Positions 1,181 to 14,125 of a DNA stretch of 19,884 bases are shown one piece after another. The translations under genes and the position numbers were made by a program. How positions within the stretch are numbered: the stretch's first letter is position 1; every line of letters starts with the position of its first letter. The notes below the pieces were generated by a model that saw nothing but the letters and a program-made list of their open reading frames with translations, did not search any database and was not told the origin of the DNA. This stretch comes from Candidatus Methylomirabilis sp. (GTDB taxonomy: Bacteria; DYJV01), in NCBI GenBank assembly GCA_020722945.1, contig DYJV01000018.1:1-19884 (forward strand). The letters run 5' to 3'.

Positions 1181-3592
1181 ATGAAAAAAGAGAATAAAAA
1201 AGAACAAAAAACTATTTCAGATAATATACTAAAAATATTTTCTACCGGTGCTCATCAAATAAAATCTCCTTTAAATTCAATCTATACTTTATTAGATATT
1301 ATTCTATACTCATATAAAGATAAACTTCCAAATCAAGTTCAAAACCTTATACTCTCAGCAATTAAGAAAGCAGGGGATCTAAAAAACTTAACAGATGATC
1401 TGTTCCAACTCGGTAAGATAAAAGATAAAATAATCGAACAACAGAGTATCAATCTCGATGTCCTTATTTCAAAAATAAAAACTAAACTCGATGAAATCGC
1501 AAATCAAAGAAAAGTAACACTTCAATTAGACACACCTGAAACTTTGCCGGTTATTGAAAGTGATGGGACATTGTTATATAATATAATATACAATTTAGTT
1601 GAGAATGGTATAAGTTATACACCAACGGGCGGAATAGTAACATTAATAATTGATGTCAAGCAGGAAACAATAAAGTTCATTATTAAAGATACTGGTATAG
1701 GTATCCCATCTGACTCCCTACCAAAAATATTTGATGAATTCTATCGAGCACCCAATGCTAAAATAGAGAAAAAGTCCGGAACAGGACTTGGACTTGCAAT
1801 TGTAAAAAAAGCAGTTGAACTTTTAAATGGAACTATATATGTTGACAGTAAGGCAGGAAAAGGAACAACTTTTACAGTAGAGATACCAATAACAAAAAGT
1901 AAATCTGTTAAGGAAAAAAAACCAAATAAAAGAATAGTCATAATAGGCGGTAAAGCATCAGGACCAAAAACTGCTGCTAAATTAAGAAGAATGGATTCGG
2001 AAGCAGAAATAATATTAGTTGAAAAAGAAGAATTTCTTTCATATTCCGGGTGCGGATTGCCCTACTATATCTCCGGCTACGTTAAAGATAAAAAAGAACT
2101 GATGAGCAGCCCGGCTGGCGAACTTAGAAATCCCGACTTCTTTAAAAGAATAGGAAATATAACAGTTTATAATCATACAGAAGTTATTGACATTGATAGA
2201 AAAAATAAATTTGTAACATTAAAATCTCTTGAGAAAAAAAATATAAGCAGATTATCCTACGATTATCTGGTGATTGCCACAGGAGGAAGACCTTATATAC
2301 CAAAAATAAAGGGGATTAAACTAAAAAACATATTCACTCTCCATAATGTTACTGATGCTGATAGATTAAAAGAGATTCTTGCACCTCCAAAAGCCAAGGA
2401 TGGTATAATTATTGGTGCTGGATTAATTGGTATGGAAATGTCTGAATCATTAATTGCTCGTGGAACCAGAGTATCAATAATTGAAAAAGAAAAAAATATA
2501 TTAAAATTTTTTGATGATGATATTGCTTTACTAATAAAAAATAGAATAGAACTTAAAGGTATAAAATTTTATACAGACGAAATTGTTAAAGAATTTAGAG
2601 GAAAAGAGAAAGTAGAATTCGTAGTAACAGATAAAAGAATACTACCCGTTGATTTTGTTATTATTGCAACCGGTATAAAACCTGAAGTTCAACTGGCAAA
2701 AAAAGCAGGACTTGCAATAGGTGAAACAGGTGCTATAAAAGTTAATCAATCTCTCCAAACTTCTGACCCCTATATTTATGCTGTAGGAGATTGTGCGGAA
2801 AATAGAAATCTTGTAACTGGCAATGAATCCTTTATGCCTCTGGGCTCTACTGCAAACAAGCATGGAAGAGTTGCAGCCATTAATATCGGCGGTGGAAAAG
2901 CCAAATTTAAAGGGATTGTTAACACTGTTGTCTTTAAAATTTTTGATATCAGTGCTGGTAAAACTGGATTAACAACTGAAAAGGCAATAAAGGCTGGCTA
3001 TAAGCCCATCTCTGTTTTAGTTCCCACTCTTGATAGAGAACATTATTATAAAGAGGCTCAAAAAATAATTATTAAATTAATCGGGGATAAGAAAAGTGAA
3101 AAGTTACTTGGTGCACAAATATTCGGCTCAGGTGATGTTATAAGACGCATAGATGTTGTTGCAACAGCACTTGCTAATAAAATGAAAATTGATTCATTGC
3201 GTGAACTTGATTTAGCCTATTTCCCCGCTTTTGGATTGCCATTTGACCCCATTAATATTGCTGCAAATGTATGGGAAAATTTGAAATATGGAGATTACAA
3301 TAAAGTAGAGGCTATTGATTTATATAAACTTATTAAAAATAAAAAAGATATACTGATCATTGATGTAAGAAGACCTGAAGAGTTTGAAGAATATTCACTA
3401 CCATTCTCTTTAAATATACCTGTTGGGGCTATTCGGGCACATTCGGACTCTTTACCTAAAAATAAAAAAATAGTCTTAGTTTGTGATACAGGGATGAGAT
3501 CTTACAGTGCATACAATATTTTAAAAAGGTTTGGATTTAAAAATATTGCTATCCTGAATGGCGGACTTAGCTGCTGGCCTTATATCGACTGA
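1181..3592 (+). CDS. Histidine kinase - CoA-disulfide/persulfide reductase - rhodanese fusion
   Basis: Three modules lie in one 803-residue soluble protein. Residues 1-240 are a histidine kinase: H-box AHQIKSPL with His25, N-box NLVEN (138-142), G1 DTGIGI (170-175), F-box IFDEFYR and G2 GTGLGLAI (200-207). Residues 250-700 are an FAD/NAD(P)H pyridine-nucleotide-disulfide oxidoreductase of the CoA-disulfide-reductase type: FAD motif near 254, single redox Cys291 in SGCGLPYYISG, NAD site IIGAGLIGMEM (410-420), YIYAVGDC, and the C-terminal LAYFPAFG with Tyr680. Residues 705-803 are a rhodanese with active-site loop CDTGMRS (Cys768). The last two modules match known CoADR-rhodanese enzymes that reduce CoA or sulfur persulfides. 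I infer that the reductase/rhodanese part senses redox or sulfur state and controls the kinase. No membrane segment or PAS domain is seen. The start is the first ATG, after a TATAAT box. Confidence 0.93.
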   Translation: MKKENKKEQKTISDNILKIFSTGAHQIKSPLNSIYTLLDIILYSYKDKLPNQVQNLILSAIKKAGDLKNLTDDLFQLGKIKDKIIEQQSINLDVLISKIKTKLDEIANQRKVTLQLDTPETLPVIESDGTLLYNIIYNLVENGISYTPTGGIVTLIIDVKQETIKFIIKDTGIGIPSDSLPKIFDEFYRAPNAKIEKKSGTGLGLAIVKKAVELLNGTIYVDSKAGKGTTFTVEIPITKSKSVKEKKPNKRIVIIGGKASGPKTAAKLRRMDSEAEIILVEKEEFLSYSGCGLPYYISGYVKDKKELMSSPAGELRNPDFFKRIGNITVYNHTEVIDIDRKNKFVTLKSLEKKNISRLSYDYLVIATGGRPYIPKIKGIKLKNIFTLHNVTDADRLKEILAPPKAKDGIIIGAGLIGMEMSESLIARGTRVSIIEKEKNILKFFDDDIALLIKNRIELKGIKFYTDEIVKEFRGKEKVEFVVTDKRILPVDFVIIATGIKPEVQLAKKAGLAIGETGAIKVNQSLQTSDPYIYAVGDCAENRNLVTGNESFMPLGSTANKHGRVAAINIGGGKAKFKGIVNTVVFKIFDISAGKTGLTTEKAIKAGYKPISVLVPTLDREHYYKEAQKIIIKLIGDKKSEKLLGAQIFGSGDVIRRIDVVATALANKMKIDSLRELDLAYFPAFGLPFDPINIAANVWENLKYGDYNKVEAIDLYKLIKNKKDILIIDVRRPEEFEEYSLPFSLNIPVGAIRAHSDSLPKNKKIVLVCDTGMRSYSAYNILKRFGFKNIAILNGGLSCWPYID

Positions 3593-3596
3593 TACC

Positions 3597-3989
3597 TTAT
3601 TTATTTAATAACTTCTCAACTACGGCTAAAAATTTTTCGCTCTCAATAGGCTTCTCAATAAACTCATCTACAGATATCCATTCTTCATTCCTATTATCAC
3701 TTGCAGGAGAAAAATCCATTCCTGTAACCTGTGAAACTGAAGTTGACATAAGTATGGGGATATTTTTTAATTTGTCATCATTTTTTAATTTATATGCAAA
3801 TTGGAATCCCTCATCCGGACTGTCCATCATTACATCAAGTATTACTAAATCGGGTTTATCTCTATTTATGCTATTTAAACCATTCTCAGTGTTGTTCGCT
3901 GTATTAACATCATACCCATTAGATTCCAATAAAATTTTTACTGCATCAACAAATTCAATATCATCGTCAATAATTAATATCTTCTTCAC
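3597..3989 (-). CDS. Receiver-only response regulator
   Basis: A single REC domain of 130 residues with no output domain. The acidic pocket is D8-D9-D10, the phosphoacceptor is Asp52 in LVILDVMM, the switch serine or threonine is in ILMSTS (82-84) and the conserved lysine is Lys113 in IEKP. Between the switch residue and Lys113 there is a longer than usual stretch (TGMDFSPASDNRNEEW), a subtype I recall from anaerobes; I could not check this. A GTG start at 3989 has Shine-Dalgarno GGGAGG six bases upstream. The gene ends 4 bp from the end of the kinase fusion on the opposite strand. It is the obvious candidate partner, but it has its own promoter. Output must come from protein contacts or a phosphorelay. 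Confidence 0.93.
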   Translation of the reverse strand: MKKILIIDDDIEFVDAVKILLESNGYDVNTANNTENGLNSINRDKPDLVILDVMMDSPDEGFQFAYKLKNDDKLKNIPILMSTSVSQVTGMDFSPASDNRNEEWISVDEFIEKPIESEKFLAVVEKLLNK

Positions 3990-7736: not shown

Positions 7737-7762
7737 ACTTACTACTTAATCACTTACTACTT
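7737..7762. repeat. Short tandem duplication at gene junction
   Basis: ACTTACTACTT occurs at 7737-7747 and again at 7752-7762, a 15-bp period. It spans the last codons and stop of the FMN-domain gene and the start of the 43-bp gap before the AmrS gene. It looks like a slippage duplication. Confidence 0.7.
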
Positions 7763-8717
7763 TATAATTATATGCTTCCTTACCAGATAGTTCACCATTA
7801 TTTATCCTCTTTTTAAACTGTTCTTTATTAAATCTCTGAATCCCCCATTTGGGATGCAAGATTATCTTTTCTATATTTGTCTCTTTTTCAACATTGCTCT
7901 CCAAAATTCTACTCTTAACCGCTACTTTACTCTTTTTTATAATATTTTCAGTTTTACTATAATGAAATGTTATGATATAAAACAGTACTAATAAAAAAAA
8001 TAGTTCAAATATTATTAAAAAAATAAGAAGCACCTTACGTTTTTTAAGTTTTATATCTATCCCAAGAAAAATAAGAAAAAAGAAAACCATAATAACAGCA
8101 TAATAATAGTATAAATTTTTGTTAACCTTGGGCAATCCCATCAATTTTTTAGTAACGGTTTTTTGGTGAGTTGGAATTTTTCTAATCGCACTTTTAACTT
8201 TTGCTCTTTTCTCTACTCTTTTCGAATAAGGAAAAAATATATCTGCCATTATTTTAGAAGTTCTCTTTACTGATTTAGCCACGGCGTTAACTGTAACTGT
8301 TGCACCAGTTATTCCATTAATTTCTTTACCAACAGCAAAAGGAGCATCTATCTTTTTACCAGAAAATTGTAATTGAAACCAATCCTCTCTTATTCTATCA
8401 GCTTCTGGTATGTCTTCTATGTGAGAAATAATTTTTATTCCTGCGATAGTCCGATTTTTATAAATACCAACCAGTATTTTTATAGGTCCCATATAACCCT
8501 TTATGGAACTGTCAATATCAGTGGTAATAAAACAGATACCAATAACTCTCTTTCCAATGAAAGCATCCCAATGTGGATATCTACCAGATTTTGCGGAAAA
8601 TGAGGTTGCAGAAGGCATAACATAATGCAAATCCTTATCTGTTATACCTGAAAATAATTCAGTAGTTACTATATAAAAAATTAGTATTGAAATAATTACT
8701 ATTTTTTTAATAATCAT
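7746..8717 (-). CDS. FMN-binding-domain membrane protein, probably flavinylated
   Basis: A 323-residue protein with an N-terminal membrane or signal segment (5-20), an FMN-binding domain of the RnfG/NqrC/NosR type (about 55-160) and two later membrane helices (204-222 and 228-250) separated by KLKKRK. A basic tail of about 70 residues follows. The motif TGATVT (137-142) fits the S/T-G-A-T-x-T site where ApbE attaches FMN through phosphate to the last threonine, here Thr142. Positive residues between the helices put that loop in the cytoplasm and the FMN domain outside. It probably carries electrons across or at the cytoplasmic membrane; donor and acceptor are unknown. Its ATG overlaps the lytic transglycosylase gene by 11 bp, so coupling is likely. 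Confidence 0.88.
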   Translation of the reverse strand: MIIKKIVIISILIFYIVTTELFSGITDKDLHYVMPSATSFSAKSGRYPHWDAFIGKRVIGICFITTDIDSSIKGYMGPIKILVGIYKNRTIAGIKIISHIEDIPEADRIREDWFQLQFSGKKIDAPFAVGKEINGITGATVTVNAVAKSVKRTSKIMADIFFPYSKRVEKRAKVKSAIRKIPTHQKTVTKKLMGLPKVNKNLYYYYAVIMVFFFLIFLGIDIKLKKRKVLLIFLIIFELFFLLVLFYIITFHYSKTENIIKKSKVAVKSRILESNVEKETNIEKIILHPKWGIQRFNKEQFKKRINNGELSGKEAYNYKVVSD

Positions 8718-10058: not shown

Positions 10059-10349
10059 TTATATATGGGATTTTGCTTGAAAAAATATCTCATCAACAAT
10101 AGATTTCTTGAAAAACCCGTTTATCTTCTTAATAATATCCTGCTGCAAAAAATTTAACTGCGTAGCCCATGCAGGAGAATCTACATCTATAAATAATCGT
10201 TTCCCTGAAATAAAGGATGGAGATGTATGCGATGCTATTGCTTTTCCCACACAATTCTCCCACTCTTCTTTTATATACTCTAAAGCAAATCGTGGTTCCC
10301 ACTTTTTTTTTGAAATTATTTTTTTAATAATATCTCCTGCTTTATCCAT
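10059..10349 (-). CDS. dciA: DciA-like protein (DUF721)
   Basis: A 96-residue basic protein of the DUF721 family, members of which (DciA) help load or operate the replicative helicase DnaB in bacteria without DnaC/DnaI-type loaders. The WEPRFALEYIKEEWENCVGKAIASHTSP segment, then FISGKRLFIDVDSPAWATQLNFL (about 46-68), is the conserved core: a KH-like fold with the W-A-x-x-L motif. It is short and lacks the long tail of some relatives. ATG 10349 overlaps the end of recF by 8 bp. The place after dnaN and recF at the origin is typical and supports a role in replication start. Confidence 0.87.
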   Translation of the reverse strand: MDKAGDIIKKIISKKKWEPRFALEYIKEEWENCVGKAIASHTSPSFISGKRLFIDVDSPAWATQLNFLQQDIIKKINGFFKKSIVDEIFFQAKSHI

Positions 10350-11442
10350 CCAATATTATAACCTCTTTATCATTCATCTCTTTATACTCTTTATCATCTA
10401 CTGCAACTAAGAAAAACTGAGCATCAATACTTTTAATAAAATCAATAATAATATACCTGTTTTCATTATCAAGTTCAACCAAAATGTCATCCATTAAAAT
10501 AACAGGCACATCATTTATCTTATCTTTTAAAAAATTGAATTCTGAAAGTTTCAATGCAGTAACTGTTATCCTTTTTTCTCCAATAGAAAAAATCTCACTT
10601 AAATCGTATTTTCCATTCATTTTGAATATTATATTATCACGATGAGGTCCTAACATAGTATATCCTAAAGCAGTTTCCTTGTTTAAACTGTTTTTTAGTT
10701 TTGAATTATATTCATCCTTAAGTTTTTCTGGTGTAAAATCATTTTCATCATCAATAATATTGGATATATAATCTATTCCAATGCCATCCAGATTTTTAAT
10801 ATTTAAATTTTTCAATGTTTTAAAAAAATTCGATTCTATTTCTTTTATGTATTGCTTTCTCTTAAGAATTATCTTTGTTCCATACTCTATAGTTGGCTTA
10901 TTTAATACTTCTAAATTGTTATACTTCTGTTTTTCATCTGGCTGTTTTAGGACAAAATTTCTTGATTCAATTATCTTATTATATTTAATTAAATCAGAAT
11001 AATATTCTCTATCTATTTGTGAAAAAAGTCTGTTCAAAAAATCTCTTTTAAAATCAGGAGAGCCGTCAATTAATAACAGGTCATTCTGATAAAATAAGAT
11101 TGAGTTTATAATACCTATTACATCCTCTAATCTCTTTATTTTAATTCCATCTTTTTTAAACTGTTTTTTTCTGTTTCTGCTTGAATAGATTATCTCAAGT
11201 TTCTCGTCCATCCCTTTTTTGTTTGCCAAACATGATATAGAAAAAAAATCTTCTCCATATTCTGTCATAGAGAAATCGAGACTTCTGAAAGATTTAGTTG
11301 TGGAAAGATAATAGATTGCTTCAATAATAGAGGTTTTTCCTGCCCCATTTCTTCCTGATATAACATTCTTTTTATCATAGAATTTAAATTTCTTTAAAGT
11401 ATGATTTCTAAAATGTTTTAATTCAAGGTATTTTATCCACAT
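10342..11442 (-). CDS. recF: DNA replication and repair protein RecF
   Basis: An SMC-like ATPase of 366 residues that helps RecOR load RecA at gapped DNA. The opening is typical (IKYLELKHFRNH). Walker A is GRNGAGKTS (30-38, Lys36). The region after it (STTKSFRS) is the usual RecF follow-on. The ABC-like signature FSIGEKRITVTALKLSEF and Walker B VPVILMDDILVELD come near the C-terminus. LLLIDGSPDFKRDFLNRLF matches the lid region. Its ATG overlaps the dnaN stop by one base (TAATG), and its end overlaps dciA by 8 bp, so all three are translationally coupled. Confidence 0.96.
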   Translation of the reverse strand: MWIKYLELKHFRNHTLKKFKFYDKKNVISGRNGAGKTSIIEAIYYLSTTKSFRSLDFSMTEYGEDFFSISCLANKKGMDEKLEIIYSSRNRKKQFKKDGIKIKRLEDVIGIINSILFYQNDLLLIDGSPDFKRDFLNRLFSQIDREYYSDLIKYNKIIESRNFVLKQPDEKQKYNNLEVLNKPTIEYGTKIILKRKQYIKEIESNFFKTLKNLNIKNLDGIGIDYISNIIDDENDFTPEKLKDEYNSKLKNSLNKETALGYTMLGPHRDNIIFKMNGKYDLSEIFSIGEKRITVTALKLSEFNFLKDKINDVPVILMDDILVELDNENRYIIIDFIKSIDAQFFLVAVDDKEYKEMNDKEVIILDG

Positions 11443-12554
11443 TAATTTAACTTAATAGGCATTATAAGACATAAAAAGTTATCATTAGATTCTTCTTTAC
11501 CCATAGCAGCACTTTCTGCCTCATTAAAACCCATTACAAATTTTTCAGTATCAATTGAATTTATAAAGTCTAATATATATTCGTTACTAAAGGCTATTTC
11601 AAAATCTTCATAATCATATAAAATATCTATCTCTTCCCGAGCTTCACCTATTTCAGGATTAGCCGATTCCAGTACCAATTTATTCTTTTTAAAAATAAAA
11701 TTTATTTTTCCGCTCTTGTTATCTATTGTAAGAATTGAGACTCTTTTTACTGCATTAATCATTTTGTTAGTATAAAAGATTACTTTTTTGCTGTAATTTT
11801 TTGGTATTACCTGTGTATAATCAGGAAATTTACCGTCAATCAGACGAGAAATAAGTTCAATATCACTAATCTTAAAGTATATCTGATTTTGGCTTAATCC
11901 CATTTCAATCTGTCCCTCATCTGTAAGAATCTTTAAAAGTTCACCCAATACTTTATGAGGTACTGTTATACCATCCAGTTCATTATCAGTTTTAACTTCA
12001 TTTTCTATTAGAGCAAGACGTCTTCCGTCAGTTGCAACAAATCTAAGTTTTTTATCTTTTAATTCAAGTTTAACTCCTTTTATAGTTGAAGTTAAATCCT
12101 CGTTTGATACTGCAAAAATTGATTTTCTTATCATAGTTGATAAATCTTTTTGAGAAATATTTATAAAAAAGTCTACATTCTTTTCAGGCAATACAGAATA
12201 ATCATTTTTAGGCATACCTTTTATTTTAAATTCTGCTTTTACTTCTTCATTTTTGCTTTTTATAGAGACTATGTTATTTTCATCTACTGAAATCATAATA
12301 TCATCATTTGGAAGAGCTTTAACAATATCAGTTAACTTTTTTGCATGTATTGTTATTGAGCCTGGTTCTATTACTTCTGATTTTATAGGTATTTTTATTG
12401 CAACTTCTAAGTCTGTTGATGCTATTATTATATGGTCATCTAATGTTTCAATAAGAATATTTGACAATATAGATATAGTAGTTTTTGAAGTAATTATATT
12501 TTCTGCAAAATGTAAAGCATTTGCTAATTTTTCTTTTGCTGCAATTATTTTCAT
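11442..12554 (-). CDS. dnaN: DNA polymerase III sliding clamp (beta subunit)
   Basis: A 370-residue beta clamp with three repeated folds of about 125 residues each. It opens MKIIAAKEKLANALHFAENI and contains KDLSTMIRKSIFAVSNED at the domain 1/2 boundary and VRFVATDGRRLAL-like text in domain 2 (KLRFVATDGRRLALIE), a strong family marker. The end, NFLCLIMPIKL, matches the usual Y-x-x-M-P-x-R-L tail. The clamp encircles DNA and tethers polymerase III. ATG 12554 has Shine-Dalgarno GAGAGG 7 bases upstream. It follows dnaA by 212 bp that carry DnaA-box-like sites, so DnaA may influence its transcription. Confidence 0.97.
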   Translation of the reverse strand: MKIIAAKEKLANALHFAENIITSKTTISILSNILIETLDDHIIIASTDLEVAIKIPIKSEVIEPGSITIHAKKLTDIVKALPNDDIMISVDENNIVSIKSKNEEVKAEFKIKGMPKNDYSVLPEKNVDFFINISQKDLSTMIRKSIFAVSNEDLTSTIKGVKLELKDKKLRFVATDGRRLALIENEVKTDNELDGITVPHKVLGELLKILTDEGQIEMGLSQNQIYFKISDIELISRLIDGKFPDYTQVIPKNYSKKVIFYTNKMINAVKRVSILTIDNKSGKINFIFKKNKLVLESANPEIGEAREEIDILYDYEDFEIAFSNEYILDFINSIDTEKFVMGFNEAESAAMGKEESNDNFLCLIMPIKLN

Positions 12555-12591
12555 ATTAACACCTCTCTTATTATTATTCTATATATAAATA

Positions 12592-12782
12592 TAGAAGTAG
12601 TAATAGTAACACTTGTTGAAATGTGTAAAACTCTATTATTATTTATAACATAAAGAATAATATCAAGTATAAATATGTGGAAAGTAAATAAACTTTTACA
12701 CATATACACAGATATTACTCTTTTTTTTAACTTAATGTAATTATTAACAATTTTTCAACAATTAATTCACAGACTATCCACA
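12592..12782. other. Probable oriC part 2: DnaA boxes, DnaA-trio and AT-rich DNA
   Basis: The dnaA-dnaN gap holds several near-matches to the DnaA box TTATCCACA (complement TGTGGATAA): TGTTGAAAT (12614-12622), TGTGTAAAA (12622-12630), TGTGGAAAG (12676-12684), TTTTACACA (12694-12702) and CTATCCACA (12774-12782, inside the last codons of dnaA). A run TAG-AAG-TAG-TAA-TAG-TAA (12592-12609) points into the first two boxes in the same relative orientation as the Bacillus DnaA-trio. The rest is almost pure A and T. This is the expected place for the unwinding site. Confidence 0.6.
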
Positions 12783-14125
12783 CTTAAATCTTTGATTATT
12801 TTTTCAATTGCATTGTTTAAAGATTTATCCATTTTTCTTAAATTTTTGATTTTTTCAATTGCATGAATAACTGTTGAATGGTCTTTACTTCCGAATGCTC
12901 TACCGATTTCAGTGGTAGATGAGTTTGTTATCTCTTTAATTATATACATTGCAACCTGTCTTGGAATTAGAATTTCAGATATCCTTCTTTTTGATATCAA
13001 AGATTTGTGTTCAATACCATAATAATCTGCAACAGCATGCTGTATCTGTTCAATGTTAGTTCCTTCTTTAACATTATCTTTTATCATATCTTTAACAGCT
13101 TTCCTTGCAAGTTGTAAATCAATCTCTTTATTTAATAGTGTAGATAAAGCTATCAGTTTTATGAATGCACCTTCGAGTTCTCTTATATTATGCTTTATTC
13201 TTTTCGCAATATAATGGATAACTTCGGGTTGTATTTTAATTTTTTCTGCATCTGCTTTTTTGTATAATATTGCTTCGCGTATTTCTAAGTCAGGCGGAAC
13301 TATATCAGATATCAGCCCCCATTGGAATCTTGATTTTAAACGTTCTTCCAAATGATTTATCTCTTTTGGAGGTCTATCTGATGTTAATATTATCTGCTTT
13401 TCTGCATTGTGGAGAGTATTAAAAGTATGAAAAAATTCTTCTTGAGTTGCTGTCTTGCCTGCGATAAAATGAACATCATCAACCAGAAGCACATCTATCT
13501 TTCTATATTTATTTCGGAAATTATCCATTTTTCCATTTTGTAAAGAGTGAATAAGGTCGTTTGTAAATTTTTCGCCTGATACATATAAGACAGATAATTC
13601 AGGCTTTTCACTTAATAGTTTGTTTCCAATTGCATTTAAAAGATGTGTTTTGCCAAGCCCTGCACCACTATATATAAAAAGTGGGTTGTATGTTTTAGCA
13701 GGACGATTTGAAACAGCCATACATGCAGCATGTGCAAATTGGTTGCTCGCTCCAACAACAAAATTGTTGAAGGTATATTTTGGATTTAAGTTTGAGTTAT
13801 ATTTATCTATTTTTGTTTTATTTTCTTTTGATTGTGTTGGAATCTTTCTTATTGTTGTATTTGTGATTTTAGGGCTATTATCCTTGGCTATGGTAAATAA
13901 GACTGATATATCCTTATTTAAAAGTTGCTGAAGATTTGCCCTTATTTTTGGAAGAAGATTTTTACTTAAGTAATCTTTATGAAATTTACTGGAAACTTCT
14001 ACGACAACCTTATCATCATTTATATCTAACTGCCTCGTCTCTTTTAAATAGCTGTTAAATATATGAGAATCAACGTTCTTTTCCATCAATAAAAGAAGGT
14101 TATCCCATAAATTTTCTTTGTTCAT
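12767..14125 (-). CDS. dnaA: Chromosomal replication initiator protein DnaA
   Basis: The 452-residue initiator ATPase. Domain I (1-75) opens LWDNLLLLMEKNVDSHIFNSYL. A short linker follows. The AAA+ domain starts NPKYTFNNFVVGASNQFAHAA (114-134). Walker A is GAGLGKTH (154-161), Walker B LLVDDVHF (213-220), and the sensor and arginine-finger stretch is HLEERLKSRFQWGL (258-271). Domain IV ends with the DNA-binding signature FGSKDHSTVIHA, which reads the DnaA box. The Shine-Dalgarno GAGGAG lies 7 bases before ATG 14125. Two box-like sites and a palindrome sit just upstream, consistent with self-repression. Length is normal. Confidence 0.98.
   Translation of the reverse strand: MNKENLWDNLLLLMEKNVDSHIFNSYLKETRQLDINDDKVVVEVSSKFHKDYLSKNLLPKIRANLQQLLNKDISVLFTIAKDNSPKITNTTIRKIPTQSKENKTKIDKYNSNLNPKYTFNNFVVGASNQFAHAACMAVSNRPAKTYNPLFIYSGAGLGKTHLLNAIGNKLLSEKPELSVLYVSGEKFTNDLIHSLQNGKMDNFRNKYRKIDVLLVDDVHFIAGKTATQEEFFHTFNTLHNAEKQIILTSDRPPKEINHLEERLKSRFQWGLISDIVPPDLEIREAILYKKADAEKIKIQPEVIHYIAKRIKHNIRELEGAFIKLIALSTLLNKEIDLQLARKAVKDMIKDNVKEGTNIEQIQHAVADYYGIEHKSLISKRRISEILIPRQVAMYIIKEITNSSTTEIGRAFGSKDHSTVIHAIEKIKNLRKMDKSLNNAIEKIIKDLSVDSL

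Follow-up and report, generated by a model that had tools for sequence, protein, structure and literature searches.

A histidine kinase joined in one chain to a persulfide reductase and a rhodanese: a candidate cytoplasmic two-component sensor

The known bacterial sensors of reactive sulfur species are mainly repressors and a few kinases. Among histidine kinases, HK853 of Thermotoga maritima is a transmembrane sensor that has no enzyme domain and in which the phosphorylated His is followed by Glu (HE motif). The acidic residue after this His has been described for HisKA kinases as a general base (PMC7005713), and four positions after the His most HisKA kinases have a Thr or Asn, which is required for phosphatase activity (PMC3510030). 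When the acidic residue was replaced by Gln, kinase activity was lost and phosphatase activity was kept in Myxococcus xanthus CrdS (E372Q), and E. coli NtrB (E140Q) was kinase-minus by phenotype with its phosphatase function kept (PMC3510030). On the side of sulfur chemistry, the NADH-dependent persulfide reductase (Npsr) of A. fulgidus is active on persulfides and polysulfide, with no detectable activity on CoA-disulfide; its NADH specificity is credited to Glu183, its rhodanese residue Cys519 is thought to hand sulfur to the bound CoA, and its lid loop reads TTYGAVR (PMC7969121).

The enzymes of A. fulgidus (6PFZ), Shewanella loihica (3NTA/3NT6) and B. anthracis (CoADR-RHD, 3ICR) share the reductase core and the C-terminal rhodanese with residues 251-799 of the protein analyzed here. 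They have no kinase, whereas in our protein the reductase is preceded by a histidine kinase of 250 residues. None of the open-access papers searched reported a kinase-CoADR/Npsr-rhodanese fusion. Both halves belong to known families, and there is a fair chance that the fusion represents a new type of sensor architecture.

Organization of the fusion gene

Within the window, the whole stretch of 19,884 nucleotides under analysis, a single frame on the forward strand runs from ATG to stop and encodes 803 amino acids. This gene, its parts and the gene beside it are as follows.

1181..3592, + strand: fusion gene encoding a histidine kinase, a predicted NADH-dependent persulfide reductase and a rhodanese, 803 aa (reading frame, Pfam, homologs)
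1232..1897, + strand: histidine kinase module, HisKA-like DHp and HATPase_c, aa 18-239 (Pfam, HK853 alignment)
1250..1267, + strand: H-box AHQIKS, aa 24-29, with phospho-His H25, Gln26 and Ser29 at the phosphatase position (alignment; PMC3510030)
1898..1930, + strand: short Lys-rich linker, aa 240-250, without an in-frame start codon
1931..3271, + strand: persulfide reductase core with FAD, NAD and dimerization domains, aa 251-697 (Pfam, 6PFZ alignment)
3317..3577, + strand: rhodanese domain, aa 713-799, with Cys768 (Pfam, A. fulgidus alignment)
3597..3989, - strand: stand-alone response regulator, receiver only, 130 aa, GTG start (Pfam Response_reg, subfamily adjacency)

The Pfam matches to the fusion protein were HATPase_c (128-238, 6.3e-29), Pyr_redox_2 (251-542, 1.3e-62), Pyr_redox_dim (586-684, 5e-14) and Rhodanese (713-799, 8.8e-18). 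HisKA was matched at 23-81 (2.3e-5) with 24.8 bits against a gathering score of 26.9, and the homologous fusion of genome G210, described below, gave 31.7 bits. The original prediction had read the locus as one continuous frame with three modules, and its coordinates and nearly all of its details are correct. Its statement that all key residues are kept holds for H25, the N, G1, F and G2 boxes, Cys291 and Cys768, but not for residue 26, which is Gln instead of Glu or Asp.

The best solved relative of the enzyme half is the A. fulgidus persulfide reductase 6PFZ, with which residues 251-799 were aligned end to end by phmmer (2.4e-127). In this alignment Cys291 corresponds to the active-site Cys42, Cys768 to the rhodanese Cys519 and Glu435 to Glu183, the residue of NADH over NADPH preference, and SPAGELR (aa 310-316) is aligned with the active-site lid TTYGAVR. 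The model of ordinary CoA-disulfide reductases (TIGR03385) gave 419.1 bits and its cut-off of 578.8 was not reached. Because the Npsr residues stand at the aligned places and the TIGR03385 cut-off was missed, Npsr is the better name for the enzyme half, and persulfide reductase activity is predicted for it. The earlier designation as a CoADR-rhodanese was thus right as to a disulfide-reductase core with a rhodanese, while Npsr is the better match than CoA-disulfide reductase. Fusions of the CoADR-rhodanese-TusA-DsrE type (L027, L031) are likewise Npsr cores extended by another module; their additional modules, however, are C-terminal and sulfur-carrier-like, and not a kinase. The genome of the window also encodes a second CoADR-type reductase, without a rhodanese (L002, G000:C181:2491-3849), which is sister to one in genome G001.

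Distribution and origin of the fusion

A full-length homolog was detected among 386 scanned genomes in G210, which belongs to a different phylum, as an open frame of 830 aa with 44% identity over aa 7-801. Two further full-length homologs, with 39-40% identity over aa 15-801, came from a third, large phylum, of which 355 genomes were scanned, followed by one of its orders; they belong to G640 and G786, both of one family. All four fusions have the same domain order, kinase, reductase and rhodanese, and the presence of three full-length homologs at 39-44% identity indicates selection on both halves and on their order. Npsr homologs without a kinase are common, for example as free-standing genes among the 50 genomes searched from the phylum of G279. 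The fusion was not found in G001, one other examined genome of the window's order, nor in viral contigs; none of the plasmid records among the matches listed covered 80% of the fusion protein, and a peptide-pattern scan of genome contigs yielded ordinary kinases only. Given this outcome across 1643 genome look-ups in all, many of them repeated, the fusion is rare and its distribution patchy.

The window comes from an assembly in 184 contigs, its contamination being estimated at 5.8%, which would leave some room for a joining of two genes by an assembly or sequencing error. The probability of such an error is negligible, since the full-length fusion is also present in three other genomes and the junction contains neither a start nor a stop codon. 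Assembly and frameshift artefacts are thereby ruled out, including a sequencing error near codon 245 that the original prediction had named as a possible refutation, and the fusion is real.

The window gene has no in-frame start codon in the last 30 codons before the reductase or in the first 12 codons of the reductase, so that an independent reductase is not easily made from it. In the fusions of G640 and G786 (L140:4357-6807; L142:6118-8550) an ATG stands precisely where the reductase begins; it is perhaps an old start codon and could permit an additional, free reductase. This ATG, together with the short, Lys-rich and poorly conserved linker, would suit two independent modules that are tethered for co-expression or localization without allosteric coupling. 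Such tethering is distinctly improbable, however, because the order of the modules has been retained across three phyla and the fused kinases have no N-terminal sensor of their own.

Trees were compared for both halves. In the reductase-half trees the fusions of the window and G210 are sisters (SH-aLRT 98 in one tree; 99/98 in another), as are those of G640 and G786 (100/100). The smaller kinase-half tree also pairs the window with G210 (97/91), a grouping that was no longer resolved after addition of G640 and G786. The two pairs stand apart in free trees, a clade of four fusions appearing in 1-2% of bootstrap trees, and such a clade was not rejected when imposed as a constraint (AU p 0.49 for the reductase, 0.39 for the kinase). 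The unusual H-box AHQ[IL][KR][SA]P, common to all four fusions, argues for one origin; this likeness could also be convergent. One possible course of events starts from a widespread subfamily of membrane-sensor kinases with their receivers; a pair of this subfamily would have given up the N-terminal sensor of its kinase and acquired an enzyme at the C-terminus in its stead.

As to the surroundings, an Rnf electron-transport operon of opposite transcription (L140:1-2463) lies some 1.9 kb away from the G640 fusion. No rnf operon was seen in the window, which encodes at 7746-8717 a membrane protein with an RnfG-like FMN-binding domain, adjoining a murein transglycosylase D-like gene. The genes recF, dnaN and dnaA lie together on the - strand at 10342-14125, and a replication origin may be near.

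The kinase half and the adjacent response regulator

The closest solved kinase by sequence is T. maritima HK853, aligned by phmmer with aa 18-238, and the DHp/CA layout is alike in the fusion protein and the HK853/RR468 system. Overall, the kinase half comes nearest to kinases with membrane sensors from Planctomycetota, Omnitrophota, Bacteroidota and others. For the HisKA kinases of Planctomycetota (L040), Omnitrophota (L043), Bacteroidota (L045/L046) and G171 (L110), kinase and receiver both belong to the subfamilies closest to those of the window and are encoded by neighboring genes. These kinases carry an N-terminal membrane sensor, Asp or Glu after the His and no enzyme domain, while the fusions carry Gln. 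In nearly all kinases of the comparison set, 170-445 residues precede the kinase core; only the fusions lack them, the DHp helix beginning almost immediately. The inverted architecture with near-absent N-terminal input, as originally proposed, is therefore supported.

Gln follows the phospho-His in all four fusions and in no other kinase of the comparison set with an aligned H-box. Four positions after the His, Ser stands in three fusions (window, G640, G786) and Ala in that of G210. A search with a short query for Gln after the His in other natural kinases (TctE type) gave no match. In four related kinases (L111, L112, L113 and L115) this position is occupied by Asn (HN), indicating that it varies naturally and that an acidic residue is not strictly defining. 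All four fusions retain the phospho-His together with the N, G1, F and G2 boxes, and the intact ATP-binding boxes argue against a dead kinase.

These residues bear on a rather unlikely alternative, in which the kinase half, poor in autokinase activity or dead through Gln26, acts on the receiver as a phosphatase or is a scaffold, with the reductase as its gate. Gln in four of four fusions and in none of the other aligned H-boxes is in agreement with this alternative, as is CrdS E372Q, kinase-dead yet phosphatase-competent (PMC3510030). Against it, a pure scaffold would not need the phospho-His and the N, G1, F and G2 boxes, Asn is tolerated after the His in the close relatives L111-L113 and L115, and the phosphatase position is Ser or Ala and not Thr or Asn.

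The receiver gene (3597-3989, - strand) is convergent with the fusion gene and separated from it by 4 bp. Its best matches among all loci fetched were stand-alone receivers in L110, L043, L134, L122, L114, L040, L046, L119, L045 and L124, loci that had been fetched for their kinases and not for their receivers. These approximately ten receivers are located 0-55 bp from kinases of the fusion's own kinase subfamily, or slightly overlap them. The G210 fusion is also adjoined by a receiver, in divergent arrangement, with 37% identity to the receiver of the window; other receivers of the window's own genome scored lower, even the best of them. Since the matching subfamily stands next to same-subfamily kinases and G210 has its neighbor receiver, it is very probable that the fused kinase has its partner in the receiver at 3597-3989. 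With this receiver adjacent and the N-terminal sensor absent, the proposal of a cytoplasmic two-component sensor gains support. No matching receiver was found for G640 and G786 within the 12-16 kb read. The model of DVU0259-type receivers (NF045717) gave 67 bits for the window receiver, short of its cut-off of 160. Several receivers of the widespread pair of sensor kinase and adjacent stand-alone receiver (L110, L043, L134, L122, L114, L040, L045, L046, L119 and L124) carry a VDDFxEKP-like motif.

Possible route and direction of the signal

The reading we favor, to which we give about an even chance, is that the fusion is a soluble two-component sensor with a catalytically complete persulfide reductase as its input. 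Sulfane sulfur, from persulfide or polysulfide, would be taken up by Cys768 of the rhodanese and passed through bound CoA to Cys291, where FAD and NADH would reduce it to H2S as in Npsr. The charge or occupancy of the catalytic dimer, such as the persulfide on Cys291, the redox state of FAD or the position of the rhodanese, would then be signaled to the kinase dimer by way of the short linker. In this manner the reductase dimer would set the balance of kinase and phosphatase activity toward the neighboring single-domain response regulator. The kinase may thus respond to the turnover of the reductase, to the redox state of its FAD or to persulfide bound by it.

Three points speak against the sensor reading. 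The fusions have Gln at the acidic position needed for autophosphorylation, and Ser or Ala in place of the usual phosphatase residue Thr or Asn. G640 and G786 are without a matching receiver in the region read. A C-terminal input is unusual for a histidine kinase. Structure prediction of the fusion protein from its single sequence was uninformative (mean pLDDT 34.8).

The reductase stands at the C-terminal place, where other multidomain proteins have their outputs, and the kinase has no other sensor, so that ATP state or receiver binding could be the input. The signal might then run in reverse, the kinase module and the receiver regulating the reductase as a signal-controlled enzyme. We regard this direction as quite unlikely, because kinase-to-enzyme control within a single chain would need no matching receiver next door, and the common Npsr enzymes without a kinase need no such control.

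The favored sensor reading extends, with a probability just short of even, to a new class of cytoplasmic sensors in which a C-terminal, working persulfide reductase is the input, its sulfane-sulfur flux or charge leading to phosphorylation or dephosphorylation of the receiver, and in which the conserved Gln would be part of an altered control. If this is true, a metabolic enzyme itself would be a two-component sensor with inverted domain order, providing a directly testable case, and an input would be assigned to one branch of a widespread subfamily of kinases with single-domain receivers. It suggests that the cell may read sulfur chemistry directly off a working enzyme.
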